Shown in pieces: positions 1,642 to 60,193 of a stretch of DNA of 64,000 nucleotides. The DNA comes from Boswellia sacra. Lineage: Eukaryota; Streptophyta; Magnoliopsida; Sapindales; Burseraceae. The DNA is taken from the NCBI GenBank assembly GCA_013180625.2, contig SNVD02004377.1:1-64000 (forward strand), written 5' to 3'. The notes beneath the pieces were generated by a model. It saw nothing but the letters and a program-made list of their open reading frames with translations, was not told where the DNA came from and ran no database searches. Position numbers and translations under genes: made by a program. The stretch's first letter is position 1; every line of letters begins with the position of its first letter.

Positions 1642-3158
1642 TGATAAACACTTAAATATGCATGTTTAATAAAAGTTTAGTTCATCATATTACATTAATA
1701 GTATCATTAAATTCCTCAACTTAAGCATATTTGTAGCATTTGCATCTTTGGAATTAATTCCTCTTAATTTTAGTTTTGTTACAGGTTCGGTAAAATGAGC
1801 ATAACTCTCTATTTATAGATCAGAATGGTGCAATTCTTAATGTTTTGGAAACCTGATTCAATTGTCTACAAGATTACATTTCACAAGCATAATCAAATTC
1901 GGGCTCTTAGTGGACCAAAATTGGGCTTGAAGTGAACCCATCTACAGTCTCAGCCCAGTTTGACCAGGCCTCAGTTGGACCGTATCTCTCAAAATACGTA
2001 TCCAAATTATGCAAATCAATATGTTCTAGAAAGCTGAGAGAAATATCTACAACTTTCATGAAGACATGTGATTAAATTCACAACATTTCGATGTCAAAAT
2101 TGATGGTCAAAGTCGGTGCCTAATGATCCCAATTGTCAAAGATATTTACAACTAATATTTGACAATTATGCCCCTGAATTTGACAAGTTTGCCCCTGGAT
2201 GTATCTATAAATAGAGGTGCCTTGTGACCCATTAGGGCATCTTGGCCTTGGCTGGAACATTTTGGCTTTGGCTAGGATCTTGTATTGTGTTTTGCGTGTT
2301 TATGTTGTTAATGAATTTTCTTTTTCTTGCATTTTATTTTCTTTCTATTATAATGTTCTTCTAATTTCTCTTTGCTAAGGTGAAAGGGTGAAACCCTTGA
2401 TATGAGAATAAGGATTCTCTAACCCTTAATATGTGCTTAATAATCTTAATCTTATAATGTTTATTCAATATGATTTATATTTAATTTCTTAATCAATCTT
2501 GACACCACTCGTAAAGTGGAGGTCTTGATCCATTGTCGACAATCCTTGGCACATCAAATGCTTGGATCCTTTCTAGATGATGTATGGTTCTTCCTTACCG
2601 ACACGAATCTAGTTAGGAACCTTGATTTTTTGTAGACATATGATGATTGGCACATTGGATGCTTGAACCCATTTACAAGAAGTGGTATAAATATTGGTAA
2701 TGAAACAAATATAATTCATATAACTAAAATGGGTTAATTATCCTTATTTGAAATATCAAGGGCGGATCCCCTAACCTTAGCCTTCATTGTTATTGTGTTA
2801 ATTCCTCTTGTATTTTAATTATTCTATTGTTTATGAACTTTTTATTTTATTTACTATGGTAGGTTCTACCACATTATGAAATTGTTCTTTAATTTACTAT
2901 GGTTGGTTATACCACCTATTTCCATGGATGTTTTTACCTCCTCTTTCTTTTTGTTTTATATTTGAATGGTCGGTAATACCACCTACCATCTTACATACTT
3001 GTTGATATTATCTGTCATTTCTTTTGAAGTATCACACCATATTTGATTATATTATAAATTTGTAACGCCTAAAAATTCCCTTCCGTGATCGACCGAGGAC
3101 TCAACGGTTTATGACTGCGACAATCTATACTTGGAGAGACAATCCTTTCGGAGTGTCA
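1642..3158 (+). repeat. Athila 5' LTR
   Basis: It starts TGATAAACAC and ends GAGTGTCA. It aligns with 11613-13138 along its full length, with more differences in the first 400 bp and the last 80 bp. A TATA box (TATAAATA, 2206-2213) precedes a long pyrimidine-rich leader. A third, inverted and truncated copy of this LTR lies at about 49999-51046. Confidence 0.95.
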
Positions 3159-3166
3159 AACGAGTT

Positions 3167-3184
3167 TGGCGCCGTTGCCGGGGA
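3167..3184 (+). other. Primer binding site, tRNA-Asp
   Basis: The 18 bases TGGCGCCGTTGCCGGGGA are the complement of the 3' end (including CCA) of plant tRNA-Asp(GTC). They start 8 bp after the 5' LTR. tRNA-Asp priming is common among Athila elements. This is where minus-strand cDNA synthesis would begin. Confidence 0.9.
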
Positions 3185-3359
3185 AGGTAAAAATTGGCGT
3201 GCAAAATTGTAAGTATTCTCTTTTCTCATCTTAGATCTAAATTTTTATTTTTTGTGTGTTCATCTTTGCTCTCTTTTCTTCTCCCTTTCTTGCATGAAAA
3301 TTTGGTCACGAACATCTAGTGGTAGACTTGTTAGAAAAACATCATCTTTTCTAGAAAAC

Positions 3360-5098
3360 ATGGCCAACAATCATGAAGAAATATTCACGGATGAAGGGGA
3401 CAACCGTTCGCAACAAATGATCAAAACCAACGAAGAACCCTCAGAGACTACATGAATCCAGTAAAGACTAGTTGCACCATCTTGTGTAGTTTCTCCTCCA
3501 GATTCAATCCATTTCAATTTCAAACCAAGTTTTGTTCGACTTTTACCCACTTTTCATGGCCTTGACATGGAGAACCCATATTCGCACTTGAAACTCTTTG
3601 AAGAGGTATGTAGCTCCTACACTGACCCAAATTGTAGCATAAACACTATTAGATTAAAGCTTTTTCCTTTTTCTTTAAAAGATAAAGCTAGAATATGGCT
3701 ACAAAATTTGAGGTCGAATTCCATTAGTTCATGGGATGAGATGAAACAACAATTTTTGAAAAAATTTTTTCCTACCCATAGAACAAAATCTCTTAAAAGA
3801 CAAATTTCTGATTTCTCTCAAAAACAAGGGGAAACCCTTTACCAATGTTGGGATAGGTATAAGGAACTACTTAATACCTGTCCTCACCATGGTTTGAAAC
3901 TTGGAGAATAGTTGCACACTTTTATGAAGGGTTAACACCTCAAGATAGGCAACTAGTAGAATTAATGTATAATGGAGAATTTAAAGAAAAAGACCCTGAG
4001 GAAGCACTTGACTTCCTAGATTTCTTGGCAGAAAAGGCACAAAATTGGGACACTGCTGGCACCTATGAGGTACCAAGCAAGACCCCAACCCCGACATCCA
4101 ATAGAGGTATTTACAACCTTAGGGAAGACCAGACTTCAAGCCAAATTTGCATCCCTAGCTAGAAAAGTCGAGCTTAGAGAGAAAAAGAGTGGTCAATGAA
4201 TCTAGTCAAGAAAAGTCTGAACATTGTGAGACAAGGACCTTCTACAGCTGATGAGTTGCCCATACGTTGCCGGCTACTTTAGGGGAAGGTCTCATGAAGA
4301 AGCCAATGCATTAAACACTTCATAAAGGCCAAATCACAATCCATTACTCACAAAACCTATAATCCGGATTGGCAGAAAATCATCCAATTTTAGCTGGAAA
4401 CAATGACAAATCATTTCATAATCCACAAGTCCCTTTTCAAGCACAACAAAATTTCAAAATTCTCATGATCATGCATATGCTCCTCCTCCTAGGAAAGACC
4501 TTCAAGAAACATTGCATTCATTCATTACAAAGCAAGAGACTTTCAATAGCCAAACTGCTCAAACATTAGCAAATTTGTCAAAAACTCTTGCAAAATTTGC
4601 ATCTACATTTAGCATCCAAGAGAAGGGAAAATTTCCTTCTCAAACATTGCAAAACCCCAAAGATCAATCTAACTCAAATGCAGGGAGTTCAAGTAACCAT
4701 TATTTTGACCAAGCCAAGTCAGTCATGACCTTTCGCAATGGTAAGATTGTTGAAAAACACATTCTTATCCCTTGTGAGAAAGAAGACGAATCGATCTCTA
4801 AAGGACAGGAAGAGGTGGCCAAACCAACACCTAGCGAAGAAGAAACCAAATCGTCATCTGTGCCTCCATTTTCTCAAGCATTAGCCACACAAAAGAAGCC
4901 AACTCAAAATTCTGAAATCTTTGAAATTTTCAAACAGGTAAAGGTCAACATTTCCTTGCTTGATGTGATCAAACAGGTACCTTCTTATGCAAAATTTTTG
5001 AAAGACTTGTACACTGTGAAAAGAAAATTGAATGTGAAAAAGAAGGCCTTCCTAGCTGAGCAAGTAAGTGCCATTCTTCAAAATAATAATACAGTGAA
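3360..5098 (+). pseudogene. Athila gag, broken
   Basis: It encodes the capsid-type structural polyprotein that packages element RNA. The likely start is the ATG at 3360. The first frame stops at 3455 and resumes in another frame. The best domain is 3567-3911, a retrotransposon-gag domain with 'RLKLFPFSLKDKARIWLQNL', 'WDEMKQQFLKKFFP' and 'GETLYQCWDRYKELL', followed by a TAG. Further pieces (3965-4162, 4512-5098) include the acidic linker before protease. At least three frameshifts or stops break it, so it cannot make a full Gag. No zinc knuckle is visible, which is usual for Athila. Confidence 0.9.
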
Positions 5099-5616
5099 AT
5101 ATAAGGATCCAGGTTGTCCTACAATTTCATGTGTTATTGGAGACCATAAAATGAACAAGCTTTACTTGATCTTGGTGCTAGTATGAATTTGCTTCCATAC
5201 TCGGTTTTTCAGAAACTTAATCTAGGTGAGTTAAAACCAACTTTGTGACTCTTTTGCTTGCTGATAGATCAATTAAAGTACCAAGAGGAATAGTAGAAGA
5301 TGTGTTAGTTCAAGTCGATAAATTCATTTACCCAGTGGATTTTATCGTCTTGGACATACAACTAGTGAAAATATATAATTCAATTCCTGTCATTTTAGGG
5401 CGTCCATTTCTAGCTACCTATAATGCTTTGATTAATTGCAGGAATGAAGTCATGAAGCTATCATTTGGAAACATGACAATGGAACTTAATGTTTTTAATA
5501 TATGCAAACAACCACATGAAGAAGAAGATGAAATTGAGGAGGCCAATATGATTGAAACTATTATGGGAGACCATATCCAAAAAGGGAGTTCTCTGACCCT
5601 TTGGAAGCCCGTTTAG
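5099..5616 (+). pseudogene. Athila aspartic protease, frameshifted
   Basis: This is the retropepsin-type protease that would cut the polyprotein. The active-site triad region reads D-L-G-A-S at 5168-5182. The typical downstream 'ADRSIKVPRGIVEDVLVQV' flap region and 'PVILGRPFLATYNALI' motif follow at 5260-5440. The frame is lost just before the DLGAS motif and again around 5240, so the fold is spread over three frames. It joins gag upstream without a gap, as in related elements. Confidence 0.88.
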
Positions 5617-5639
5617 TCAATTCATTAGAATCAAGTATG

Positions 5640-6161
5640 CCTGATCTTTCTGATATATGTTCTTTACTGGATTGTGCACAGGTGATGGAAAAAGGCTCAA
5701 AACCAAGATTTGAAGAATTGGGGCAAAGAAGAAAGCAAGGAAGGGAAGCTCCTAATTAGAATAAAGCCCTTACCTCAAGGACTGAAATATGCATATCTGG
5801 GGGAGAGCAGGACATAATCCGATGGTAATTTCTTTCATCCCTCCAATACGAGCACAAGGTAAAAGCTTGATAGAAGTGTTAAAAGGCAAAAAAATACACT
5901 TGGGTGGACTTAAAAGAAAAAATGCATTACCCTTTAATTTGACACATAGAATACATTTAGAGGAAAAGCCAACACAGCTCAACCAACCGCAAAGGAGATT
6001 AAATCCACACCACATGAAAGAGGTCATTAGGGCTGAAGTTTCTCAAACGTACTTGATGTGGGAAATTAATCTATCCTATTTCTGATAGTAATGGGGAAGC
6101 CTACACAGTAGTACCTAAAAAATCTGGCATCACAGTAGTTACAAATGAAAAGGGTGAATTA
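5640..6161 (+). pseudogene. Athila pol spacer between protease and reverse transcriptase
   Basis: Pieces in shifting frames resemble the conserved Athila stretch before reverse transcriptase: 'THRIHLEE', 'QRRLNPHHMKEV' and 'VVPKKSGITVV'. Two stop codons at about 6083-6090 and several frameshifts interrupt it. This removes the normal translational link from protease to reverse transcriptase. Confidence 0.75.
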
Positions 6162-7538
6162 TTGCCAACTCGTGTCTCATCTAGTTGGAGGATGTGCATT
6201 GATTATAGAAAATTAAATGCTGTCACTAGAAAAGACCATTTTCCCTTACCCTTCCTTGACCAAATTCTTGAAAGAGTAGCAGAAAACCCCTACTACTGCT
6301 TTCTTGATGGATACTCAGGCTACTATCAAATTCCCATTGCACTTGAAGACCAAGAAAAAACCACATTCACGTGCCCCTTTGGCACTTTTGCATTTAGGAG
6401 AATGTCTTTTGGATTTTGTAATGCTCCAGCTACTTTTCAAAGATGCATGCTAAGCATTTTTAGTGATATGGTCGAGCATTGTTTAGAAGTTTTTATGGAT
6501 GATCTAACTGTCTTTGGAAACTCTTTTGATAATTGTCTTGGAAACTTAGAAAAAGTCCTAAAAAGGTGTGTAGAAAAAGGTCTTATTTTGAATTGGGAAA
6601 AATGTCATTATATGGTCACTTCGGGAATTGTCTTAGGCCATGTGGTGTCTTCTAAAGGAATTGAAGTGGACAAAGCAAAAGTGGAATTAATTTCCCATTT
6701 ACCTCCACTAAAAACAGTTAAAGAGGTCCGTTCATTCTTAGGGCATGCTGGATTTTATAGGAGGTTCATAAGAAATTTCAGTGCTATATCTAAACCTCTT
6801 TGTAACCTCTTAATAAAAGATACTTCCTTTGAATGGACTCAAGAATGTCAAAATGCCTTTGATACACTAATTGGACTTTTAACAACTGCTCCAATTATGC
6901 AATCTCCTGATTGGTCCTTGCCTTTTGAATTGATGTGTGATGCAAGTGACTATGCCGTTGGTGCTGTCTTAGGACAAAGAAAAGAAGGTAAGCCTTATGT
7001 CATATACTATGCAAGTAGGACTTTAAATGATGCGCAAATGAATTACACAACAACTGAAAAAAAACTACTTGCAGTAGTATTTGCATTGGACAAATTTCGT
7101 TCTTATTTAATTGGTTCTCCCACAATTGTTTACACTGCCCATGCAGCTGTGAGATATTTAATGACTAAACAGGATGCAAAAACTAGATTGATACGGTGGA
7201 TCTTATTGCTCCAAGAATTCAACATCACAATAAAGGATAAGAAAGGAGCCGAAAATGTCGTTGCTGATCATCTTTCAAGACTAACGACAGAGACATTAAT
7301 TGAAACTTCACCTATCAATGATTCTTTTCCTGATGAATTTTTATTTTCCGTTACTATTGTACCTTGGTTTGCTAATATCGTAAATTTTCTTGCGACAGGG
7401 AAAATGCCACCTCATTGGAATGCTCAAGACAAAAGAAAATTTTTAACCAAGGTGAAAAATTTTTACTGGGATGATCCGTATCTTTTCAAATATTGTCCGG
7501 ATCAAATAATAGAAGATGCATACCCGACAATGAGGTAA
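6162..7538 (+). pseudogene. Athila reverse transcriptase and RNase H, open but truncated frame
   Basis: A 458-residue open frame covers reverse transcriptase (about residues 1-180) and RNase H (about 250-370). Reverse transcriptase keeps its catalytic aspartates: FLDGYSGY (Asp49) and FMDD (111-114). RNase H shows the DAS motif (Asp260) and TTEKKLLAVVFA (Glu299). The third motif reads YTAH at 324-327 where this family normally has YTDH, so a catalytic Asp is replaced by Ala at residue 326 (codon 7137-7139). The N-terminus is cut off by upstream frameshifts and the frame ends at the integrase junction. The first Met is a chance internal one. Confidence 0.93.
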
Positions 7539-8696
7539 GTAGTGTCATTAATTTTTGTCATTCGAAGCATGTGGAGGACATTTTTCATCTAGAAAAACAG
7601 CTGCTAAAATCTTGCAATGTGGATTTTATTGGCCCACCTTATTTAAAGAATGCACATGCATTTTGCAAAACGTGTGAAATTGTCAAAAATTGGGGATCCA
7701 TTTCAAAAAGAAACATGATGCCTTTGAATCCATTCTTGTTGTTGAAATCTTTGATTGTTGGGTATTGATTTTATGGGACCCTTTCCACCGTCATTTGGTT
7801 TTGTGTATATCCTTGTTGCAGTAGACTATGTTTCAAAATGGGTCGAGGCAATTCCATGTCGAAACAATGATCACAAAACAGTTGTCAAATTCTTGAAAGA
7901 GAATATCTTGAGTAGATTTGGAATTCCTCGAGCCATTATTAGTGATGGGGGTACGCATTTTTGTAATAAACCATTTGAAACCTTAATGAAGAAATATGGA
8001 ATAACCCATAAAATTTCTACACCTTATCACCCACAAACAAGTGGACAAGTTGAATTAGCTAATAGGGAGATAAAACAGATCTTAGAAAAAACGGTTAACC
8101 CAAATTGTAAAGATTGGTCTTTAAGACTTAATGATGCACTTTGGGCTTACCGAACTGCTTTTAAAACATCATTGGGAATGTCTCCTTATAGACTAGTTTA
8201 TGAAAAACCTTGTCACTTGCCTGTGAAAATTGAGCATAAAGCTTATTGGGCCATTAAAACATTCAACACAAATTTGAATGATGCTTGCAAGTTACGTAAA
8301 CTCCAACTGAGTGAACTTGAAGAAATCAGGAATGAGGCTTATGAAAATTCTAAAATCTACAAAGAAAAAAAGAAGGTTTTTCATGACAAATCCATTATTA
8401 GAAAATCTTTTGAACCTTCATGAAAAGTTCTTTTGTATGATTCAAGATTGCATTTGTTTCCTAGTAAACTTCGGTCTCGTTGGGCTGGGCCTTTTATTGT
8501 TAAAAATGTTTTCCCTTATGGAGCAGTTGAAATTGAGAACCCAAAGAATGGTAATGTGTTTAAAGTTAATGGACAACGGTTAAAACCATTCTTTGAAAAT
8601 TTTGACCAAAACGAAGAGTCCATTGCTTTAGTCGATCCTTTTTTAGGATTGATTTTTCCCGGTCAAGTGCCGGATACGGTACTCCGTGACTATTAA
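7493..8696 (+). pseudogene. Athila integrase, frameshifted
   Basis: The integrase is spread over three frames: a degenerate HHCC zinc region (about 7550-7690), the catalytic core (7755-8423) and a C-terminal domain (8433-8696) with '[20 protein letters not shown]'. The core keeps D-D-E: the aspartates in 'IDFMGPF' and 'ISDGGTHF' and the glutamate in 'GQVELANRE'. A single-base loss near 7750 separates zinc finger from core, and a TGA at 8421-8423 separates core from C-terminus. It is therefore not translatable as one protein. Confidence 0.92.
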
Positions 8697-8728
8697 AGTC
8701 GGTTTTTCAGTTCCCTAAAAACTGTTGC

Positions 8729-9316
8729 TTGCATCCATTTTCTTTTCTTCTCTCTCATTTTCTTCACATGGATACCATTTTCTCAAAATTGCACAAACAT
8801 TTTCCCTCTCTTCCTCAAAATGATTTGCTTAAAATTTATAAAGCTCGTGCAGAAAGACTAAGGTTTTTGATGCGTAAAGGTATTCCTGCTGATTTAAGAT
8901 GGTTAATTGAAGCCAAGGTTCGATTCTCTTGTGAGTTTTCAGATAATCTTGTTTACCATATGCCAAGTTTGGAAAAAAGCTCTTATGCTAAAAAGAGAAG
9001 AGCAAAAAGGTTACAAGTTTGTCACAAATGTGCAAGATGGACTTGTAACCAGCGTTGCCGCTCCTTGGGATATTTGTCTAACAATCGAGAGGATAAGCTA
9101 CAGTTCATCAAGGATGGACTGAGTAAGGAGTCCTTGAATGATATCCGAGTGACTCTTGAGACGCATTCTTGTGGACTTGTGCAGCGTGAAATTTTTAATT
9201 TGTGGACACAATTTCGAGATGAGCAGGAACGCTATAGTCTTAGGAATCTGACTCAAAATGACCCTGTTTGCCAGTTTATAAGAAAACTGGATGGGAAGCA
9301 TATCCCCAACTCATAG
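8729..9316 (+). CDS. Accessory ORF of the Athila element: basic, Cys-cluster protein resembling viral nucleic-acid-binding proteins
   Basis: This is an uninterrupted frame of 195 residues, 33 bp after the integrase frame. Translation could begin at Met1 or Met14; Met14 removes a hydrophobic leader. The centre has a basic run 'YAKKRRAKR' (86-94) followed by C98-x2-C101-x4-C106-x3-C110 with His99, then 'LQFIKDGLSKESL' (124-136). Basic run, then CxxC-based finger, then a FI..G-type helix is the order seen in the cysteine-rich nucleic-acid-binding proteins of carlavirus-type plant viruses (Pfam Viral_NABP), some of which suppress RNA silencing. The distance between Cys pairs is shorter here. This link is my inference from the pattern and was not searched. 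No membrane segment is obvious, so it is not a typical env-like product. The frame has stayed open although gag-pol has not. Confidence 0.6.
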   Translation: MHPFSFLLSHFLHMDTIFSKLHKHFPSLPQNDLLKIYKARAERLRFLMRKGIPADLRWLIEAKVRFSCEFSDNLVYHMPSLEKSSYAKKRRAKRLQVCHKCARWTCNQRCRSLGYLSNNREDKLQFIKDGLSKESLNDIRVTLETHSCGLVQREIFNLWTQFRDEQERYSLRNLTQNDPVCQFIRKLDGKHIPNS

Positions 9317-9631
9317 AAGGTGTTTAAGCCGTTTATGGACGTAAAACTAGAGGAAGATATAAGCCACAGTCACAACTACCTGTACATATGCATGCGTGCC
9401 ATCATTTTTGAATTTTAATGCTTCATTGCTGTCATTTTTGAATTTGTATCTTTTGTTGACTTATGGTGTCTTATTTCATCATCTTTTGACCTTTTTTTGC
9501 ATTATTGTCAACTTTTTCAACAAACAATCGAGCTACCTAGATAGATATCATCATTAACATACCTTTTTGCACTCCATAAATACCACATGTCTTGTTCTCT
9601 TCTTTACACATAGTTAGAGAGTCACATAGAC
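9317..9631 (+). promoter_or_regulatory. Spacer before the LOG frame with candidate TATA box
   Basis: This 315-bp AT-rich spacer has no reading frame. CATAAATAC at 9575-9583 lies about 50 bp before the LOG ATG and could act as a TATA box, which would let LOG be transcribed independently of the 5' LTR. This is inference from position and composition only. Confidence 0.3.
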
Positions 9632-10282
9632 ATGGAGGGAGCTTCAAAACGTCGAATCCAAAGGATATGTGTATTCTGTGGATCTCGACCAGGAAAAAGT
9701 GAAGAGTTCGTAGAAGTAGCGAATTATCTTGGTAGGCTACTGGCTGAAAGAAAGATTCATGTGGTTTATGGGAGAGGTAGCCTCGGGTTAATGGGTTGTT
9801 TGTCAACAGCTGCACATGTAGGAGGTACTCAAGTTTTAGGAGTTATTCCTAAAGCTTTGGCTGTAGAAAGTATTGTTGGAAAAACGGTTGGGAAGGAGTT
9901 ACAGGTCTCCTCTATGCATGAACGCATGGCACATATGCTCATCAATTCAGATGCCTGTATTGCTTTACCAGGTGGCTTTGGCACTCTTGAAGAAATTTTT
10001 CAAATTGCCTCTTGGGCCCAACTGAATCTCCATAAAAAACCCATAGGTTTGTTGAATGTTAAAAATTTCTTTGATCCTTTGATAAGTTTTTTTGATGCAG
10101 TTGTGGAACAAAATTTTATCCCTCATTCAGCAAGAAAGATCCTTGTTTCTGCCACTTCTGCTGGTGAGTTACTTGACAAATTACAAGAAGTTGAGCATGA
10201 ACCTGACCCAGCTAGTACTCAAATTAATTGGGCAGGAGGGCAAAACAAAAAGTGCAAATTGGATCTGAATCTCCGTTTATAA
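9632..10282 (+). CDS. LOG-like: LOG-family cytokinin riboside 5'-monophosphate phosphoribohydrolase, carried by the Athila element
   Basis: LOG enzymes release active free-base cytokinin from its nucleotide in the cytosol and nucleus. This frame is 216 residues, the normal length, and starts at the only sensible Met. The Rossmann-type fold starts 'RICVFCGSRPGKSEEF' (11-26). It has 'VYGRGSLGLMG' (45-55), MHERMAHM (95-102, with Arg98), and the family signature PGGFGTLEE (113-121, with Glu121), then 'WAQLNLHKKPIGLLNV'. Plant LOG genes normally have several introns; this copy has none, which points to capture of an mRNA. Two positions depart from the usual plant motif: Arg48 where the glycine-rich loop has Gly, and Met99 where Lys is usual. 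The last residues, LDLNLRL (210-216), resemble an LxLxL repression motif. Whether it is active is unknown. Confidence 0.9.
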   Translation: MEGASKRRIQRICVFCGSRPGKSEEFVEVANYLGRLLAERKIHVVYGRGSLGLMGCLSTAAHVGGTQVLGVIPKALAVESIVGKTVGKELQVSSMHERMAHMLINSDACIALPGGFGTLEEIFQIASWAQLNLHKKPIGLLNVKNFFDPLISFFDAVVEQNFIPHSARKILVSATSAGELLDKLQEVEHEPDPASTQINWAGGQNKKCKLDLNLRL

Positions 10283-11019
10283 TTTTTTTTCTTCTTGTCC
10301 TTTATTTTATTTTATTTTAGCATGTTATTTTATGAGTCTTTCAGGTCATCTCTCTTGAATAACAGAAGCTTCAGGTAATGTCTCCTATACTTTATCTCTC
10401 TACATTTAAATATTGAGGACAATGTTTCATTTGGTTGGGGGGGAAGGATAGTAGACATAAGTGTGTCTTGAAATTTTACTTTTTCTTGCAAAAAAAAAAA
10501 AAGAAAAAGAAAGCGAGTTAGTAATTAGATTCAGAGTGCGGTGTAAGGAGTTTAAATCCTCTTGAGACGCATTCTGGGTCAGGAATGGCAGAGTAGGGAG
10601 GACCAGTTTGAACTCTTGAAACCCATTCTAACCAATTTGTCATTTTATTTTTGCATTTTTGAAGACTTATTTGATATTATTTAGTCTTGATTTTTGAATT
10701 TTATAACAAGGGGGTCTTATTCATTTCGCTTTGAATCATTCAAATCTATGAACTCTCACAACCTTATCATTTAATAAATTGTGTGCTTATGTGCTCATTA
10801 AGCAAGTATCTATGAAACTTTCTTCACACATACACATACCTTGATGTATGATTGTGGGTGGCGAAATGAAATATTGTAATATTTGAGTTCTTTTGTTTTG
10901 TTTAGGATAACAACAAAAGGAAGGGGAAAGTTTAAAAAAAAATGAAAAATGAAAAAAAAAAAGAGAGAGAAAAGCAATGGTGGATAAGTTTGGTCTTGTA
11001 GCCTCCTTAATTCGAGCAA

Positions 11020-11272
11020 TTAAGCCCGAGGGGTGCCTCAACACCTAATACCCTAAGACCAACTGGTTTGGGAGCTATTGGCCCAAAGCTCGCTACATGG
11101 ATTAAGGAGAAAGCTTAATGGGATTGAACATTGCACTATCCACAAGTTTCTAAGCAAAAATAAAGCATCAGCAACCCGAGTCGTTAAGCTCGTAGGGGTG
11201 TCTTAACACCTAATGCCGTAAGGCCAACTGGTCTGGGAGTCATTAGCCTAAAGCTCGCTACATGGGTTAAAG
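11020..11272 (+). repeat. Duplicated 90-bp segment in the Athila 3' region
   Basis: 11020-11106 and 11183-11272 are imperfect direct copies: both run 'ttaagc.cg.aggggtg', then '.aacacctaat', then 'ccaactggt', then 'aaagctcgctacatgg'. They are separated by about 75 bp. Purpose unknown; paired repeats near the 3' polypurine tract occur in some Athila-like elements. Confidence 0.85.
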
Positions 11273-11600
11273 ATGCATTCTTTCAAAAAAAAAAGAAAAA
11301 AAAGAAAAAATATATAAAATGAATAAATACACCCTACCTAAGGTTGTTAGCCTTAACAAATACTAGAACCGATATGGCTTATTTCTAATAAGCCCCATAG
11401 TTATGTGTCAACTGAGCACAAAAGAAGGTTTGTGGATATCTTGACTAACGGGTACATGAGTCATTTAAAAAAAAATTAGTTGAGAGTTTATTTATTTGGA
11501 TAAAATCAATGAGAGTGCAATAATGACCACCTTGGATGTAAAATTCTATAAATCACTTCTAAATAATAACGCTTTAATTGCTAGGGACTAGCAATAAGCT

Positions 11601-11612
11601 AGTTGGGGGGTG
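11601..11612 (+). other. Polypurine tract of the Athila element
   Basis: AGTTGGGGGGTG directly abuts the 3' LTR start (TGATGAACAC at 11613). This is the primer position for plus-strand cDNA synthesis. Confidence 0.85.
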
Positions 11613-13138
11613 TGATGAACACTTAAATATGCATGTTTAATAAAAGTTTAGTTCATCATATTGCATTAATAGTATCATTAAATTCCTCAACTTAAGCATA
11701 TTTGTAGCATTTGCATCTTTGGAATTAATTCCTCTTAATTTTGGTTTTGTTATAGGTTCGGTAAAATGAGCATAACTTTCTGTTTATAGATCAGAATGGT
11801 GCAATTATTAATGTTTTGGAAAGCTGATTCAATTGTCTACCAGATTACATTTCACAAGCATAATCAAATTCGGGCTCTTAGTGGACTAAAATTGGGCTTG
11901 AAGTGAACCCATCTACAGTCTCGGCCCAATTTGACCAGGCCTTAGTATTTGAACCGTATCTCTCAAAATACGTATCCAAATTGTGCAAATCAATATGTTC
12001 TAGAAAACTGAGAGAAATATCTACAACTTTCATGAAGACATGTGATTAAAATTCACAACATTTTGATGTCAAAATTGATGGTCAAAGTCGGTGCCTAATG
12101 ATCCCAATTGTCAAAGATATTTACAACTAATATTTGACAATTATGCCCCTGAATTTGACAAGTTTACCCCTGGATGTATCTATAAATAGAGGTGCCTTGT
12201 GACCCATTAGGGCATCTTGGCCTTGGCTGGAATATTTTGGCTTTGGCTAGGATCTTGTATTGTGTTTTGCGTGTTTATGTTGTTAATGAATTTTTTTTTC
12301 TTGCATTTTATTTTCTTTCTATTATAATGTTCTTCTAATTTCTCTTTTGCTAAGGTGAAAGGGTGAAACCCTTGATATGAGAATAAGGATTCTCTAACCC
12401 TTAATATGTGCTTAATAATCTTAATCTTATAATGTTTATTCAATATGATTTATATTTAATTTCTTAATCAATCTTGACACCACTCGTAAAGTGGAGGTCT
12501 TGATCCATTGTCGACAATCCTTGGCACATCAAATGCTTGGATCCTTTTCTAGATGATGTATGGTTCTTCCTTACCGACACAAATTTAGTTAGGAACCTTG
12601 ATTTGTTGTAGACATATGATGATTGGCACATTGGATGCTTGAACCCATTTACAAGAAGTGGTATAAATGTTGGTAATGAAACAAATATTATTCATATAAC
12701 TAAAATGGGCTAATTATCCTTATTTGAAATATCAAGGGCGGATCCCCTAACCTTAGCCTTCATTATTATTGTGTTAATTCCTCTTGTATTTTAATTTTTC
12801 TATTGTTTATAAACTTTTTATTTTATTTACTATGGTAGGTTCTACCACCTTATGAAATTGTTCTTTAATTTACTATGGTTGGTTATACCACCTATTTCCA
12901 TGGATGGTTTTACCTCCTTTTGCTTTTTGTTTTATATTTGAATGGTCGGTAATACCGCCTACCATCTTACATATTTATTGATATTATCTTGTCATTTCTT
13001 TGAATTATTCACACATATTTGCTTATCTTATAATTTGTAACGCTAAAATTCCCTTCCTCGTGGATCGACCTCGGACTCACCGGGTTTATTACTTCGACAC
13101 TCCTATACTTGGGAGACAATCGTTTTTCGGATATGTCA
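11613..13138 (+). repeat. Athila 3' LTR
   Basis: It runs from TGATGAACAC to ATATGTCA and aligns with 1642-3158. The TATA box is at 12181-12188. It is followed by CCCTA (13139-13143), matching the five bases before the 5' LTR. Confidence 0.95.
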
Positions 13139-13180
13139 CCCTAATTACGAATTTCACTTTTCTTTCCTCTCGGTTCCCTC

Positions 13181-13535
13181 CGCGTCTCTCTCTACCGCAA
13201 AATTGACCACCCGCCTCTACTGTTACCTCCATAGCTCCTGCAGCAGCCATCCTATCCCCCATCGCTTCTACGTGACAATCTTTTTTCCCCTTGATCTCCC
13301 TTCGCGTCTCTCTCTACCGCAAAATCGACCACCCGCTGTTGCTGTTATCTCCATAGCTCCTGCAGTAGCCATTGTATCCGCCATCGCTTCTGCGTGACGG
13401 AGCCTTTTTTCCTCCTGGTCTCCCTCCGTGTCTCTCTCTACAGCAAAATCGACCACCCGCCGCCGCCGCTACCTCCATTGCTCCTACAGTTACCATTGTA
13501 TCCACCATCGCTTCTGTGTGACAGAGCCTCGTTGA
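13181..13535 (+). repeat. Three tandem copies of a 123-bp unit inside the CACTA element
   Basis: Copies start at about 13181, 13303 and 13427 (spacing 122 and 124). Each runs 'gtctctctctac.gcaaaat', 'gaccacccgc', 'ctcc.tagctcct', 'catcgcttct', 'gtgaca'. They are relatively GC-rich and translate into repetitive frames on the minus strand, but no start or family supports a gene. They lie 40 bp inside the CACTA DNA next to the Athila insertion and may be subterminal CACTA repeats. Confidence 0.9.
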
Positions 13536-27594: not shown

Positions 27595-28445
27595 GTATGC
27601 ATTGGACCTTGGATGGGCCGTTTTGTATACGGATCCAAGGAGAATGCGGATAATAAATTCTAAGTGTTGGACCTTGGGTGGACCGTTATGTATATGGACC
27701 CAAGGGGAACACGAATATAACGATGAGATGTGTTGGACCTTGGGTGGACCGTTCTGTATATGGACCTAAGGGGAACACACATATAATGATATGAGATGTG
27801 TTGGACCTTGAGTGGACCGTTCTGTATACGGACCCAAGGGGAACACGAATATAACGATGAGATGTGTTGGACCTTGGGTGGACCGTTCTGTATACGGACC
27901 TAAGGGAAACACGCATATAATGATATGAGATGTGTTGGACCTTGGGTGGACCGTTCTGTATACGGACCTAAGGGGAACACGAATATAATGAGATGATGTG
28001 TTGGACCTTGGGTGGACCGTTCTGTATACGGACCCAAGGGGAACACGAATATAATGAGATGATGTGTTGGACCTTGGGTGGACCGTTCTGTATACGGACC
28101 CAAGGGGAACACGAATATATATGACGGACCCCGTTCTGTATACGGACAAGGGGAACACGAATAAAATGACATTGGGTGGACCGTTCTGTGGACCCTTGGG
28201 TGGACCGTTCTGTATACGGACCCAAGGGGAACACGAATAAAATGACATGATGTGTTGGACATTGGGTGGACCGTTCTGTATACGGACCTAAGGGGAACAC
28301 GAATAAAACAACGTGATATGTTGGACCTTGAATGGACCGTTCTGTAAACGGATCCAAAGGAAAAAAACGAATATAATAAATATGATGTGTTGAACCTTGG
28401 ATGAGCCGTTCTATATACGGATCCAAGGGGAATACGAATATAAAT
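27595..28445 (+). repeat. 66-68-bp minisatellite with a hairpin in each unit
   Basis: About 12-13 units. The core reads 'ttggaccttgggtggaccg', 'ttctgtata', 'cggacccaaggggaacacga'. CCTTGGGT pairs with ACCCAAGG around a short loop, so each unit can fold into a stem. Units 2-5 alternate two tail types, giving a 134-bp higher-order repeat. Two truncated units sit near 28128-28195. Proline-rich frames on the minus strand (up to 175 codons) come from the repeat being free of stops, not from a gene. Confidence 0.92.
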
Positions 28446-28906
28446 TTGATATGCGAATGGATATAATTGGTTGATCTATTAGTATTTGATGTCAAATCCT
28501 GTGATTGGATATTTGTGGAATATGAATAATTTTTTATAATGTTAGAACTTTCCTACTGGGCTTTATGCTTACCCCCTCCCTCCACAGGTAACACAGAAGG
28601 ATGCTTATCCTAGAGATGTTCCAAAGCTTTCTTAGGGAGTCTGGAGTCGGTATGCATATAATTTTTGGGGACTGTCTTGATTCTCCTTGTATGTAATGAG
28701 AGATTTCGTTAGGTGGCTATTAATTGATGTATTGATTTTAGTCACCAGTGTATGTAAAATTAATTTTGAACAAATAGTCATAAGTTGTAATGAATTCTTG
28801 TGATAAAAAAAAATATTTATGAGGTATGGATGACATAATTATTATAAATTCTTATTCAATCACCTCTAAAATCTCTAAATAAGAGATTTTGGGGCGTGAC
28901 AATTTA

Positions 28907-29868: not shown

Positions 29869-29979
29869 ATGGCTAACGATGAAATAGTTGATCATCATTC
29901 TGAGGAAGAGATAGAGAATATTGACATAATAGGTGATCAAGTACCTATTAATAATGGCGCACAGAACGCTAAAGGCTAA
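29869..29979 (+). pseudogene. Ancestral N-terminus of DUF247 copy 1, frameshifted
   Basis: ATG at 29869 starts MANDEIVDHHSEEE-type text like copies 2 and 3, and stops at a TAA (29977-29979). Compared with copy 2, 22 bases stand where copy 2 has 24 between 'aataatggc' and 'gaattatc'. Ribosomes starting here would not reach the DUF247 domain. Confidence 0.85.
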
Positions 29980-31519
29980 AGAATTATCCAGTCATATCGA
30001 TACAAAACTTAGAGCTTTATCTCCAAGACCAGCTGCTGGAACAATATTTAAAGTACATCCACTTCTTCGAAATGTGAATGCAAAGGCCTATGAACCTCAG
30101 ATAATCGCAATTGGTCCTTACCACCGGAGTAATAATCAGTTAAATGCAATGGAAGAGCACAAGCTGCGATATCTGAAACAGCTTCTGAAGCGAAAGAGAG
30201 AGAATGATACGAACAAGTATGTCTCGGTCATGTGGGAATTGAAAGGAGAAGCTCGTGCTTGTTATGTAGGTTCTGTAGATCTTAAAGATGATGCATTTGT
30301 GGAAATGATGTTACTCGATGCTTGCTTCATCGTTGAGCTATTTCGTAACTGGACACGGACAATCAAGGTAGAAATTGGTGATCCTATCCCAATAGGAGGT
30401 TGGATCACTGGTTACGGGGCCCGCGATTTATTATTGGTTGAAAATCAACTTCCCTTCTTTGTTCTTCAGAAGTTCTTTGACATGACTCAGATGTCTTACC
30501 AAAAAAGCCTTTGTCACATGATATTTCAATTTTTCACTTATGCAAGTCTGACGGCAGGGCCTTTTCCAAAGGATGAAAGCTACCGCATCCCATCCGCCGA
30601 GCTGCCTGAGCATCTGCCAGGATTATTGCACAGGAACTGGAGGAATCATCATTCAGGAATAAATACAATGGATCTTACAAAAGAGAATAATTGTAAGTTC
30701 AGTTGTTCAAAATTCGATAGTTGTATTAAAGTTTCAAAAGTCATTCGTAAATGGTTTCATTCACTTTCAAAAACGGAAAGTGGGGATGTGACAGAAGCGA
30801 ATAATAGGAGGTTCATACGTGGTTGGTTTCATTCGTCTTCAGAGATGGACAGTATTGGGACTAATTGGACCACCAGAATTCATAATTGGATTTGTAAGTG
30901 GTTTTGTTTGTCTTCAAAAACTGATAGCGGGAATTTGACCGCAAAGCTTGACGAGAGTTTGAGTACTATTCGTTCCGCCACACGGCTCAAAGAGGCGGGA
31001 ATCAAGTTTACGAAAGTTAAGAGCGACAACCTGTTTGCTGTAGAGTTCAAAGATGGAATAATGGGAATCCCAAAATTGCTTATTGTAGATACCAGCGAGT
31101 CTTTCTTCCGAAATTTAATTGCCTATGAGCAGTTCTACCAGGAACCGACTATGCAACATGTTACTGATTACGTAAGACTCATGGATTGCCTCGTAAACAC
31201 CTCCAAGGATGTGGAGTTACTTTGTAAGCGTGGAATTATTGAGAACGGGTTAGGTGATGATGAAGTTGTTGCCAGCATGTTCAATAGACTTTGCGACAAT
31301 ATCGTCTTTTCTCCTCCTGATGAATACAAATACCGTAAAATATTCCAGGAAGTCGAGCAGCACTGTAACAGGCGTTGGAACAGATGGAAAGCCAACTTGA
31401 GACACAACTACTTCAACACTCCATGGGCAATAATTTCATTTTTTGCTGCTTTATTGCTGCTTCTACTTACAGCGACCCAAACTGTGTTTTCAGTTCTTGC
31501 TTTTATAAAACAAAAATAA
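29933..31519 (+). CDS. DUF247 (UPF0481) membrane protein, copy 1, shifted N-terminus
   Basis: A 528-residue plant DUF247 protein, single coding exon. Hallmarks: 'YEPQIIAIGPYHR' (53-65), 'MEEHKLRYLKQLL' (73-85), 'MMLLDACFIVELF' (125-137), 'RDLLLVENQLPFFVL' (164-178), 'FFRNLIAYEQFY' (391-402), and a C-terminal membrane helix (about 500-523) before a short basic tail. The middle has three WFxxSSK..SG units (273-287, 297-307, 322-336). The ancestral start is the ATG at 29869, matching copies 2 and 3, but a 2-bp loss near 29970 puts that frame out after about 36 codons. The ATG at 29933 (or 29954) lies in the surviving frame, so a protein with a new N-terminus is possible. DUF247 function is largely unknown; in grasses such genes act in self-incompatibility. 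Confidence 0.85.
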   Translation: MIKYLLIMAHRTLKAKELSSHIDTKLRALSPRPAAGTIFKVHPLLRNVNAKAYEPQIIAIGPYHRSNNQLNAMEEHKLRYLKQLLKRKRENDTNKYVSVMWELKGEARACYVGSVDLKDDAFVEMMLLDACFIVELFRNWTRTIKVEIGDPIPIGGWITGYGARDLLLVENQLPFFVLQKFFDMTQMSYQKSLCHMIFQFFTYASLTAGPFPKDESYRIPSAELPEHLPGLLHRNWRNHHSGINTMDLTKENNCKFSCSKFDSCIKVSKVIRKWFHSLSKTESGDVTEANNRRFIRGWFHSSSEMDSIGTNWTTRIHNWICKWFCLSSKTDSGNLTAKLDESLSTIRSATRLKEAGIKFTKVKSDNLFAVEFKDGIMGIPKLLIVDTSESFFRNLIAYEQFYQEPTMQHVTDYVRLMDCLVNTSKDVELLCKRGIIENGLGDDEVVASMFNRLCDNIVFSPPDEYKYRKIFQEVEQHCNRRWNRWKANLRHNYFNTPWAIISFFAALLLLLLTATQTVFSVLAFIKQK

Positions 31520-44170: not shown

Positions 44171-45820
44171 ATGGCTAATGATGAAATAGTTGAACATCAT
44201 TCAGAGGAAGAGTTGGGGAACGTTGATATAATAGGTGATCAAGTACCTACTAATAATGGCACGGAGAATATTTCTAATGCTAATGAATTATCAACTCATA
44301 TTGATGCGAAACTTCAAGCTTTATCTCCAAATCCAATGTCACGTGCCGGAAAAATATTTAAAGTGCATGAACTTCTTCGTAACGTGAATGTAGAGGCCTA
44401 TGAACCTCAAGTACTCGCAATTGGTCCTTACTACCGGAGCAAGAATCACTTAAGTGCGATGGAAGAGCACAAGCTTCGCTATCTGAAACAGCTTTTGAAG
44501 CGAAAGAGGCAAAATAATACAAACAACTATGTCTCAGTTTTGTGGAAATTGAAAGGAGAAGCTTGTGCTTGTTATGTAGATGCCGTACATCTCAAAGATT
44601 ATGAGTTTGTGGAAATGATGTTACTCGATGCTTGCTTCATTGTTCAGCTATTTCGCGAGGTTTCAGGGACAATCCGGACAGAAATTGGTGATACTATCCT
44701 AAACGGAGGAAGTTGGCTTTGTTATAGTATGGCCCGCGATTTATTATTAGTTGAAAATCAACTTCCCTTCTTTGTTCTTCAGACATTCTTTGAAATGACT
44801 AAGATGCCTAACGATAAAAGCCTTTGTCAAATGATTTTTCAATTTTATAATGTCGCAAATGTGGTTCCGAAGCCGGGGCCTGTAGCAAAAGATGAAAGCT
44901 ACTACATCCAATCCGTGGAGCATCTCCTGGGAGTATTACATAGGAAGTGGACGGACCATTCAGCAATGGACAGTGTGGATCCTAAAGAAGAGAATAAATG
45001 TACGTTCATTTGTTTAAAATTCGAGAGGTGTTTTAAAGTTTCAGAAGTCATGATCCGTAAATGGTTTCATTTGCCTTCAAAAACGGAAAGTGGCAATGTG
45101 ACAGGAGACAATAACTGTAGGTTCATGTTTAGTTGGTTTCATTCGCCTTTAAAGATGGACAGCAACTGGCCCTCCAAAATTCATAATTGGATTTCTAAGC
45201 GGTTTTACTGTTGTTCATCAAATATTGATGGCGGGAATTTGACGGAAGATAATGATGCGATGTTAAGTATTCCCTGCGCCACACAGCTCAAAGAGGCTGG
45301 AATCAAGTTTAAGAAGGTTAAGAGCATTAACCTGTTCGCTATAAGGTTCAAAAATGGAGTAATTGAAATCCCAAAATTGCGAATTGACGATGCGAGCGAG
45401 TCTTTCTTCCGAAACTTAATTGCCTATGAGCAGTTTTACCAGGAAGCGACTATGTTTTATGTTACTGATTACATTAAACTCATGGACTGCCTCGTGAACA
45501 CCTCCAAGGATGTGGAGTTACTTTGTAAATGTGGAATTATTGATAATGCAGGGTTAGGAGATAATGAAGCTGTTGCCAACATGTTTAATAGGCTGTTCGT
45601 CAATGTCATTTTTTGTCCTGAAGACTACAAATACACTGAAGTATTCCAGCAAGTCAACCAGCACTGCAACAGGCGATGGAATAAATGGAAAGCCAACTTA
45701 AGGCACAACTACTTCAACACTCCATGGGCAACCATTTCATTATTTGCCGCTTTATTACTGCTTCTACTTACGGTGGCCCAAACTGTGTTTTCCGTTCTTG
45801 CTTATATGAAACAAAAATAA
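44171..45820 (+). CDS. DUF247 (UPF0481) membrane protein, copy 2
   Basis: A complete 549-residue DUF247 protein in one exon, starting MANDEIVEHHSEEE (acidic N-terminus shared with copy 3). Domain text: 'FKVHELLRNVNVEAYEPQVL' (63-82), 'AIGPYYRSKNHLSAMEEHKL' (83-102), 'MMLLDACFIVQLF' (149-161), 'ARDLLLVENQLPFFVL' (188-203), 'LKEAGIKFKK' (373-382), 'SFFRNLIAYEQFY' (411-423), 'DYIKLMDCLVNTSKDVELL' (433-451). One membrane helix, about 522-545, then MKQK, so it is probably tail-anchored. 276-362 is an inserted region with three related WFH/SK/SG units, absent from the usual DUF247 layout. Residues 160-190 and the insert differ strongly from copy 3, while 370-450 are nearly identical. Confidence 0.93.
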   Translation: MANDEIVEHHSEEELGNVDIIGDQVPTNNGTENISNANELSTHIDAKLQALSPNPMSRAGKIFKVHELLRNVNVEAYEPQVLAIGPYYRSKNHLSAMEEHKLRYLKQLLKRKRQNNTNNYVSVLWKLKGEACACYVDAVHLKDYEFVEMMLLDACFIVQLFREVSGTIRTEIGDTILNGGSWLCYSMARDLLLVENQLPFFVLQTFFEMTKMPNDKSLCQMIFQFYNVANVVPKPGPVAKDESYYIQSVEHLLGVLHRKWTDHSAMDSVDPKEENKCTFICLKFERCFKVSEVMIRKWFHLPSKTESGNVTGDNNCRFMFSWFHSPLKMDSNWPSKIHNWISKRFYCCSSNIDGGNLTEDNDAMLSIPCATQLKEAGIKFKKVKSINLFAIRFKNGVIEIPKLRIDDASESFFRNLIAYEQFYQEATMFYVTDYIKLMDCLVNTSKDVELLCKCGIIDNAGLGDNEAVANMFNRLFVNVIFCPEDYKYTEVFQQVNQHCNRRWNKWKANLRHNYFNTPWATISLFAALLLLLLTVAQTVFSVLAYMKQK

Positions 45821-58549: not shown

Positions 58550-60193
58550 ATGGCTAATGATGAAATAGTTGAACATCATTCAGAGGAAGAGTTGGAGAAC
58601 GTTGATATAATAGGTGATCAAGTGCCTATTAATAATGGCACGGAGAATATTTCTAATGCTAATGAATTATCAACTCATATTGATGCGAAACTTCAAGCTT
58701 TATCTCTAAATCCAATGTCACGTGCCGGAAAAATATTTAAAGTACATGAACTTCTTCGTAACGTGAATGCAAAGGCCTATGAACCTCATGTACTCGCAAT
58801 TGGTCCTTACCACCGGCGCAAGAATCACTTAAGTGCAATGGAAAAGCACAAGCTTCGCTATCTGAAACAACTTTTGAGCCGAACGGAGCAAAACGGTACG
58901 GAAAACTATGTCTCAGTTTTGTGGGAATTGAAAGGACAAGCTCGCGCTTGTTATGCAGATCCCATAGATCTCAAGGATTACGAGTTTGTGGAAATGATGT
59001 TACTCGATGCTTGCTTCATCGTTGAGCTATTTCGCAAGTGGATATGGGCAATCAAGACAGAAAGTGGTGATCCTATCCTAAACGGAATAGGTTTGATTGG
59101 TGTTAGTGTGGCCCGCGATTTATTATTAGTTGAAAATCAACTTCCCTTCTTTGTTCTCCAGAAATTCGTTGAAATTACTAAGATGCCAACCGATAAAAGC
59201 CTTTGTCACATGATTTTTCAATATTATAATGGCATTAATGTGGTTCCGAAGCCAGGGCCTGCACTAAAGGATGGAAGATACTGCATCCAATCCGTGGAGC
59301 ATCTACTGGGAGTATTACATAGGAGGTGGACATATCATTCAGTAATGGACAGTATGGATTTTAGAGAAGAGAATAAATGTACGTTCATTTGTTCAAAGCT
59401 CGACAGATGTATTAAAGTTTCAGAAGTCATACGTCAATGGTTTCATTTGCCTCCGAAAAGGGAAAGTAGGAATGTGAGAGAAGACAATAACTGTAGGTTC
59501 ATATGTAGTTTGTTTCATTCGTCTTCAAAGATGGCCAATAATTGGCCCTCTAAAATTCATAATTTGATTTCTAAGTGGTTTTACTTTTGTTCATCAAATA
59601 TTGACGGTCGGATTTTGACAGAAGATAATGATGCGAGGCTTAGTATTCGTTGCGCCACACAGCTCAAAGAGGCTGGAATCAAGTTTAAGAAGGTTAAGAG
59701 CATTAACCTGTTCGCTATAAGGTTCAAAAATGGAGTAATCGAAATCCCAAAATTGCGAATTGACGATGCGAGCGAGTCTTTCTTCCGAAACTTAATTGCC
59801 TATGAGCAGTTTTACCAGGAAACGACTATGTTTTATGTTACTGATTACATTAAACTCATGGACTGCCTCGTGAACACCTCCAAGGATGTGGAGTTACTTT
59901 GTCAATGTGGAATTATTGATAATGTGTTAGGTGATGATGAAGCTGTTGCCAACATGTTTAACAGGCTGTTCGACAATGTCATCTTTTGTCCTGAAGACTA
60001 CAAATACAAAGAAGTATTCCAGGAAGTCAACCAGCACTGCAACAGGAGTTGGAACAAATGGAAAGCCAACTTAAGTCACAACTACTTCAACACTCCATGG
60101 GCAGCAATTTCATTTTTTGCCGCTTTATTACTGCTTCTACTTGCGTTGTCCCAAACTGTCTTTTCCGTTCTTGCTTATTTCAAACAGAAATAA
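58550..60193 (+). CDS. DUF247 (UPF0481) membrane protein, copy 3
   Basis: A complete 547-residue DUF247 protein, one exon. Same layout as copy 2: acidic N-terminus, 'AYEPHVLAIGPYHRRKNHL' (76-94), 'MMLLDACFIVELF' (149-161), 'ARDLLLVENQLPFFVL' (188-203), 'SFFRNLIAYEQFY' (410-422), a C-terminal membrane helix (about 520-543) and a basic tail. The insert with WFH-type units spans about 276-361; the units are less regular here (QWFHLPPKRES, LFHSSSKMAN, KWFYFCSSNIDG). The frame is free of damage. The whole block (about 57177-61120) duplicates 42838-46780. Confidence 0.93.
   Translation: MANDEIVEHHSEEELENVDIIGDQVPINNGTENISNANELSTHIDAKLQALSLNPMSRAGKIFKVHELLRNVNAKAYEPHVLAIGPYHRRKNHLSAMEKHKLRYLKQLLSRTEQNGTENYVSVLWELKGQARACYADPIDLKDYEFVEMMLLDACFIVELFRKWIWAIKTESGDPILNGIGLIGVSVARDLLLVENQLPFFVLQKFVEITKMPTDKSLCHMIFQYYNGINVVPKPGPALKDGRYCIQSVEHLLGVLHRRWTYHSVMDSMDFREENKCTFICSKLDRCIKVSEVIRQWFHLPPKRESRNVREDNNCRFICSLFHSSSKMANNWPSKIHNLISKWFYFCSSNIDGRILTEDNDARLSIRCATQLKEAGIKFKKVKSINLFAIRFKNGVIEIPKLRIDDASESFFRNLIAYEQFYQETTMFYVTDYIKLMDCLVNTSKDVELLCQCGIIDNVLGDDEAVANMFNRLFDNVIFCPEDYKYKEVFQEVNQHCNRSWNKWKANLSHNYFNTPWAAISFFAALLLLLLALSQTVFSVLAYFKQK

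Follow-up and report, generated by a model that had tools for sequence, protein, structure and literature searches.

A decayed LTR retrotransposon of Boswellia sacra with a putative viral-type nucleic-acid-binding protein gene and a LOG gene of altered pocket and LxLxL tail

Two accessory genes in a retrotransposon of Boswellia sacra

We analysed a window of 64,000 nucleotides from Boswellia sacra (assembly GCA_013180625.2, contig SNVD02004377.1, positions 1 to 64,000 of the forward strand), in which a long terminal repeat (LTR) retrotransposon spans 1642-13138 with a CCCTA target duplication on both sides. Between its integrase and its 3' LTR lie two sense open reading frames (ORFs), one encoding a Cys-cluster protein with the profile of viral nucleic-acid-binding proteins (NABP) and the other an intronless LONELY GUY (LOG) enzyme of the kind that activates cytokinins. 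The same pair recurs in many copies of the element, and its variants bear the marks of selection. On balance we favour, at a probability of roughly 0.6, the reading that this is a decayed copy of a large family with a two-gene cassette acting on the host. The features of the element are as follows.

1637-1641, target-site duplication CCCTA, left copy
1642-3158, + strand, 5' LTR (TG...CA), 1517 nt
about 3167-3184, + strand, primer-binding site TGGCGCCGTTGCCGGGGA
3567-3911, + strand, gag fragment (PF03732, E 7e-20)
4512-5186 and 5245-5616, + strand, gag/protease region, split into two ORFs (Pfam matches weak and under the cut-off)
6162-7538, + strand, reverse transcriptase/RNase H (PF00078, PF17917, PF17919)
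7755-8696, + strand, integrase (PF00665 in ORF 7755-8423; the reading frame is interrupted short of its end)
8768-9316, + strand, putative viral-type NABP/Cys-rich ORF, 182 aa (PF05515)
9390-10369, + strand, LOG-bearing stretch, absent from the related NABP element L001
9632-10282, + strand, intronless LOG ORF, 216 aa, ATG start (PF03641, E 1.8e-37)
10370-11604, + strand, untranslated 3' region, with an 80-nt stretch duplicated at 11029 and 11194
11605-11610, + strand, polypurine tract (G-run), just before the 3' LTR
11613-13138, + strand, 3' LTR, 1526 nt
13139-13143, target-site duplication CCCTA, right copy

An earlier note, made from the sequence of this DNA, had described an element with complete boundaries carrying two intact accessory genes. 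The boundaries are indeed all there (LTRs, CCCTA duplications, primer site and G-run tract), as are the two intact sense ORFs after the integrase, for the 182-aa Cys-cluster protein and the full-length 216-aa intronless LOG. The completeness does not extend to the rest of the coding region: gag, reverse transcriptase/RNase H and integrase fall in separate ORFs, so that an uninterrupted gag-pol is impossible for this copy. The TG..CA LTRs, target duplication, primer site, polypurine tract and the order reverse transcriptase, RNase H, integrase are those of a Ty3/Gypsy element. We take it to be probably of Athila type, following the earlier note and, for LOG elements, what Steinbauerova 2011 reportedly describes; PF03078 (Athila ORF-1) had no match among the ORFs scanned in the window. 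The primer site is presumably of the tRNA-Asp type. Use of a tRNA-Asp primer is described for non-chromoviruses among others (PMC6317226, consulted in part).

Across the first 1350 columns of their alignment (1343 sites) the two LTRs are separated by a Kimura two-parameter distance (K2P) of 0.025, across the final 172 aligned sites by one of 0.34. At a plant substitution rate of 1.3e-8, the former value would mean an age of about one million years, and the uneven divergence at the LTR ends discourages a precise insertion date. Conversion, recombination or trouble in aligning indels may lie behind the high divergence of those ends (2990-3158 versus 12965-13138, about 170 columns). An acceptor-like stretch can be seen just 5' of each accessory ORF, TTTTTCAG at about 8710 for NABP and TTTACACATAG at about 9610 for LOG.

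Copies in the host genome

Copies in the host genome (638.6 Mb, 7431 contigs) were sought in all six frames. The LOG of the window gave 14394 first-look candidates, of which 150 were scored; these matches, not counting the window itself, are 92-96% identical, and 127 of the 150 have no stop. A canonical LOG3 query gave a best 150 that are 51-54% identical to that query, likewise intronless, and share no place with the first list, so comparison of the two lists gives at least 300 distinct intronless LOG places. From the first set we retrieved 68 copies, the window among them, chosen by LOG similarity. The order NABP-LOG-3' LTR, with NABP upstream on the same strand, is present in 64 of them, the 3' LTR in all 68, and integrase sequence within the fetched stretch in 56; three of the four remaining copies end at a contig edge and one is without NABP. 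A second family in the same genome has a LOG 64-66% identical to that of the window, and NABP sequence lies upstream in 4/4 copies checked, partial where the stretch was cut. One further element-type LOG copy (118580-119227) is on the same contig as the window, some 109 kb away.

The search for further copies with the same order, which the earlier note had called for, thus found them, and the single private capture that it had named as the refuting outcome did not materialise: the nearest genome matches of the window LOG are other element copies, and the split host LOG genes resemble a canonical LOG piece more closely than the element copies do. Its other concern was a LOG target duplication. 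The longest exact repeat shared by the flanks 9317-9632 and 10283-10500 is 8 nt, and therefore no target duplication that would mark a separate LOG insertion can be seen.

A relative without LOG, L001 (DAIEQH010000041.1), is a 3330-nt plant-like contig with integrase and NABP that is filed in a bacterial metagenome-assembled genome. There is no LOG in the 983 nt 3' of its NABP; where the window has 980 nt, L001 has 113 nt, between flanks that align with 9302-9389 (84%) and 10370-10447 (74%) of the window. An element can thus carry NABP and lack LOG. The presence of these plant-type retroelement genes in a Candidatus Nomurabacteria assembly is probably contamination. L001 also retains an internal TTGGGGGG tract, found in the window at 10436-10447, 3' of LOG, which resembles the tract before the 3' LTR.

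The Cys-cluster protein

The Cys-cluster ORF starts either at a TTG (8729-9316, 195 aa) or, likelier, at an ATG (8768-9316, 182 aa). It has a basic patch, KKRRAKRL, followed by C-x2-C-x4-C-x3-C, and matches PF05515 (Viral_NABP) above the cut-off of 23 (31.6 bits, E 2.1e-7) and PF01623 (Carla_C4) slightly under the cut-off of 20.9 (19.7 bits, E 8e-4). Among 5.8 billion proteins searched, 374 relatives reached E ≤ 0.001. Among the best 120 of these 374, the Cys motif is present in 100 and the basic patch in 113, and the named relatives among the matches listed come from Populus, Xanthoceras, Acer, Rhamnella and Orobanche. In an alignment of 62 rows, made up of the window and 61 of the best 120 relatives, 58 rows match PF05515 and 58 match PF01623 at E ≤ 0.01. 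A PDB sequence search with the protein found no match. We read the ORF as a viral-type nucleic-acid-binding protein on the grounds of its Pfam profiles. It resembles the Cys-rich NABPs of carla-, allexi- and mandariviruses (PF01623, PF05515) in having a basic patch and then a Cys cluster, with PF05515 above its cut-off here; it differs from them in being a gene of an LTR retroelement, known here from its sequence, with a conserved C-terminal half outside the profile match. Carla- and mandarivirus proteins of this kind are described as silencing suppressors or pathogenicity factors, and p12 of chrysanthemum virus B (CVB) as a transcription factor that induces hyperplasia (PMC12172455, seen in part).

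The LOG enzyme and its pocket

The predicted LOG model is well supported (pLDDT 86.3, pTM 0.82), and a structure search recovered the LOG fold (2a33, E 1e-22, TM 0.96 by target). The ORF has this fold, the motif PGGxGTxxE and the catalytic Arg and Glu. Its closest protein relatives are 52-70% identical, many of them belonging to clusters to which one plant contributes anything from several to hundreds of members (for instance 327 Pterospermum members for P0105). NABP and LOG are joined in one Rhamnella gene model (P0230), and matches of the two genes on contigs of equal size (8723, 4511 and 2128) would suggest, by inference, that the pairing exists elsewhere.

Residues were compared with those of the Corynebacterium LOG, in which Arg99 and Glu122 are catalytic and Met96, His97, Lys100, Glu125 and Trp129 form an inferred prenyl site; alanine changes of the tested AMP-binding residues of the bacterial enzyme nearly abolished its activity (all from the consulted part of PMC4979012). 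The counterparts in the element LOG are R98 and E121 for catalysis and M95, H96, K99, E124 and W128 for the pocket. Two similarity searches supplied an element-type and a canonical set, the best 120 of each; counts took element-type rows of 205-230 aa (7/120 left out) and canonical rows of 205-235 aa (26/120 left out). All seven positions are invariant among the 94 canonical LOGs. Among the 113 element-type LOGs R98 is kept in 107, E121 in 111, W128 in 112, M95 in 102 and H96 in 58, whereas K99 is kept in two and is M, I or L in 109, and E124 is Q or H in 107. The canonical N6 side-chain pocket MHKEW, found in 94/94 canonical LOGs and in a single element-type row (P0119), thus reads MHMQW in the window. 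In addition, the window LOG has an Arg at position 48, in the GGGS loop, where 65 of the 68 copies have Gly; three copies including the window carry the Arg, and the window copy's own enzyme may therefore be impaired. Plant LONELY GUY enzymes of LOG1/LOG3 type (2a33, 1ydh) share with the element LOG the fold, PGGxGTxxE and the catalytic Arg and Glu; the element LOG differs in being intronless and about 45% identical, with Lys99 and Glu124 replaced and a basic LxLxL tail added.

The LxLxL tail

The window LOG ends in NKKCKLDLNLRL, a basic patch with the LxLxL sequence LDLNLRL. The general element-type ending is a basic patch and [LM][DN]LxLxL, and LxLxL stands at the very C-terminus of 102/120 element-type LOGs versus 0/120 canonical LOG1/3-type LOGs; of the 18 element-type LOGs lacking it, 8 are truncated, 6 have an altered end and 4 are gene models with odd extensions. 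Conservation of the tail is on a par with that of the active site (L212 in 106/108, L214 in 103/107, L216 in 105/106). In the model it is disordered and outside the fold, with residues 202-210 at pLDDT below 50. An LxLxL near a terminus is what defines an ethylene-responsive element binding factor-associated amphiphilic repression (EAR) motif at the sequence level. LxLxL is described as an EAR motif that recruits TOPLESS, and the effector HaRxL21 has it at its C-terminus (PMC7446885, consulted in part). Like such effectors the element LOG has a C-terminal LxLxL and possible TOPLESS recruitment; it differs from them as a gene of a genomic retroelement, known here from sequence, whose motif is fused to an enzyme. 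The TOPLESS-type tail suggests that this LOG has a further or another job.

Origin of the element LOGs

The element-type LOGs form one clade against canonical LOG1/3-type LOGs and LOG8 (SH-aLRT 100, with 75 element-type rows). The same clade, on a long stem of 1.1, has support of 100/100 with 50 element-type rows in a tree whose bootstrap had not settled. The split is partly due to construction, because the two sets were the best 120 of similarity searches. The canonical set consists of LOG1/LOG3-like sequences plus a single LOG8 row, LOG5 and LOG7 being absent, and the host LOG genes stand outside the trees. Given sets chosen by similarity and the missing LOG5 and LOG7 types, a single origin of the element LOG by one capture is likely rather than proven. 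Of the 50 element-type rows P0119, whose tail is present and whose pocket is canonical, is the first to branch off (97/93, bootstrap not settled); capture and tail therefore seem to be older, and the pocket change later. As for the LOG genes of the host itself, a 58-aa piece of canonical LOG has matches of 67-88% at 12 places; these stop at residue 40-52, the pattern of split host LOG genes that are still present. The element copies match the piece at 45-53% and run to about residue 55.

Selection on the two genes

Variants among the 68 LOG copies were sorted by the number of copies sharing them. The ratio of nonsynonymous to synonymous variants (N/S) is 92/40 (2.30) for singletons, 21/13 for those in 2-3 copies and 7/29 for those in at least 4 copies (p 7e-8), against a neutral expectation of 2.1-3.2 depending on transition bias. 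One 'stop' among the variants shared by at least 10 copies was taken as an artefact, because 59 of the 68 copies are stop-free and positions were scored singly. The second family repeats the pattern in 13 copies (41/25 for singletons, 2/8 for two copies, 8/29 for at least three; p 9e-5), four of which have a one-base deletion. Between the window LOG and the second family, dN is 0.257 and dS 1.45. For NABP the counts are 144/59 for singletons, 41/21 for the intermediate class and 15/16 for the most shared (p 0.02), and comparison of the window with L001 gives dN 0.20 and dS 0.89. The variants show LOG to be under purifying selection, and NABP too, though more weakly. LOG is intact in 59/68 copies and NABP in 22/64; frame-shifting indels occur in 27/64 NABP versus 1/68 LOG copies, a contrast exaggerated by the choice of copies. 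Overall the differences among copies point to selection that kept both accessory genes working during the spread of the element.

Discussion

We propose that the window element is one decayed copy of a large Athila-type Ty3/Gypsy family with a two-gene accessory cassette in the env slot. The NABP may act on the element's behalf as a silencing suppressor or a nuclear zinc-finger regulator. LOG would derive from a single capture of a spliced copy of a plant LOG1/3-like gene. It would have kept its catalytic core and gained the basic LxLxL tail, whose most likely role is recruitment of the TOPLESS co-repressor in the nucleus; the nucleotide side-chain pocket of the enzyme would have been reshaped afterwards. 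Together the two proteins could make the cell more permissive, above all dividing and germ-line-forming cells, via damped silencing, a shifted status of cytokinins or modified nucleotides, and TOPLESS-dependent transcription. Directly observed are the anatomy, the number of copies, their common order, the single LOG clade with its tail and pocket changes, and the purifying selection; silencing suppression, nuclear action, TOPLESS binding, the substrate and the benefit to the element are inferred. The fuller proposal, an endogenous-retrovirus-like lineage with a host-manipulation module, in which an RNA-virus-type suppressor and a nuclear, TOPLESS-binding LOG of changed substrate would both be kept because they aid replication in meristem and germ-line-forming cells, is put forward tentatively.

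Several points weigh against the proposal. The viral link of the Cys-cluster ORF comes from Pfam profiles; its structure model is of low confidence (pLDDT 69.6, pTM 0.39), the structure search with this poor model returned no viral structure (best E 4.1), and viral contigs scanned twice with the NABP and LOG alignments yielded no relative. In L001 either NABP works without LOG or LOG was lost there, and most element-type LOGs outside the host genome are without visible genomic context. The intactness of LOG is biased because copies were chosen by LOG similarity, and the non-coding divergence (0.0425) is below the LOG dS (0.082), which keeps the non-coding stretch from serving as a clean neutral reference. 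Finally LxLxL is short, and according to the consulted part of PMC7446885 it was insufficient for TOPLESS binding in other effectors.

The earlier note had read the gene as an ordinary cytokinin-activating LOG that raises free cytokinin and hence cell division; on such a reading the tail would be of no importance. The fold (2a33), R98, E121 and PGGxGTxxE conserved in the family speak for such an enzyme, as do the first-branching P0119 with its canonical pocket and the role of LOG enzymes as a direct route of cytokinin activation (PMC4979012, in part), and from sequence a cytokinin benefit to the element is plausible. Yet two residues of the inferred prenyl/adenine site, Lys99 and Glu124, have been exchanged in almost every member, the window copy itself carries Arg48, alanine changes of AMP-binding residues nearly abolish the bacterial activity (PMC4979012, in part), and the tail is conserved as strongly as the active site; we regard this reading as possible and somewhat doubtful. 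At the other extreme, LOG might be mainly a stable nuclear carrier for a TOPLESS-type tail, as decoy or recruiter, with little catalysis. Clade-wide pocket changes and the conserved tail would fit, and the tail, being predicted disordered, would be available; but Arg98, Thr118, Glu121 and the glycine loops are conserved, which a mere scaffold would not need, and variability along the 199 sites compared follows the pattern in canonical LOGs (Spearman 0.48), which makes a mere carrier unlikely. The tail could also be a feature of folding, dimerisation or localisation that does not bind TOPLESS. The motif is short and common, and other LxLxL effectors failed to bind TOPLESS (PMC7446885, in part); against this stand the exact terminal spacing beside a basic patch, in 102/120 element-type versus 0/120 canonical LOGs, and a model that places the tail outside the fold. 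We give this explanation of the tail some credence, short of even odds.

That both ORFs are functionless passengers might be argued from the fact that most copies are dead and from the broken gag-pol of the window. The contrast of shared and private N/S in two families, the dN/dS well below 1 between families and catalytic residues conserved across deep divergence lead us to reject it as very improbable. Least credible, with next to no probability, is a private capture by this one copy or a separate insertion of LOG into the element: L001, without LOG at the equivalent place, could be cited in its favour, and it is contradicted by the shared order in 64/68 copies, by its recurrence in the second family, by the lack of a target duplication of its own and by the clade that unites the window LOG with element-type LOGs from other plants.

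Elements with extra ORFs, LOG among them, are known; the partner gene, the tail, the pocket and the evidence of selection appear to be new. The abstract of Steinbauerova 2011 reportedly describes two Athila-like elements with similarity to LOGL4, and extra sense ORFs are said there to lie 3' of pol. Two Citrus species and P. trichocarpa have Gypsy consensus sequences for which a LOG domain (YgdH) is listed (PMC9289625, citing Steinbauerova 2011), so that the Citrus and Populus Athila-type elements with extra ORFs share with ours a LOG-type domain in rosid Ty3/Gypsy elements; in the consulted part of that source the descriptions give the domain only, with no NABP partner, tail, pocket change, selection test or copy number, and no viral NABP is listed alongside LOG. 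A functional ALKBH-type RNA demethylase is carried by Ty3/Gypsy elements of orchids, from the same source. These are alike in that a captured RNA- or nucleotide-related enzyme was kept through replication; they differ in the enzyme, and a viral-type partner gene is not described for them in the part consulted. Within the open-licence literature of PubMed Central (PMC) we found no report of the NABP partner, LxLxL tail or pocket change, no paper linking EAR or TOPLESS to retroelements, and nothing related that links a carlavirus-type NABP to Athila.

How envelope-less plant LTR elements escape silencing and gain access to the germ line is an open question, and a cassette kept by selection, pairing a protein of a silencing-suppressor family with hormone activation and a co-repressor motif, offers concrete, testable proteins. 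If the proposal is true, hundreds of 'LOG' gene models in plant genomes would be element genes, which affects annotation and work on the cytokinin gene family.

Other features of the window

A unit of about 124 nt occurs three times head-to-tail at 13158-13527, starting 15 bases past the right target duplication, with 79-85% identity to the reference copy. Further downstream, minus-strand ORFs of repeated VFPLGPYTERSTQGPTH-like units at 27766-28495 are minisatellite-like. Three full-length DUF247 (PF03140) genes form a spaced cluster on the + strand, at 29933-31519, 44171-45820 and 58550-60193.

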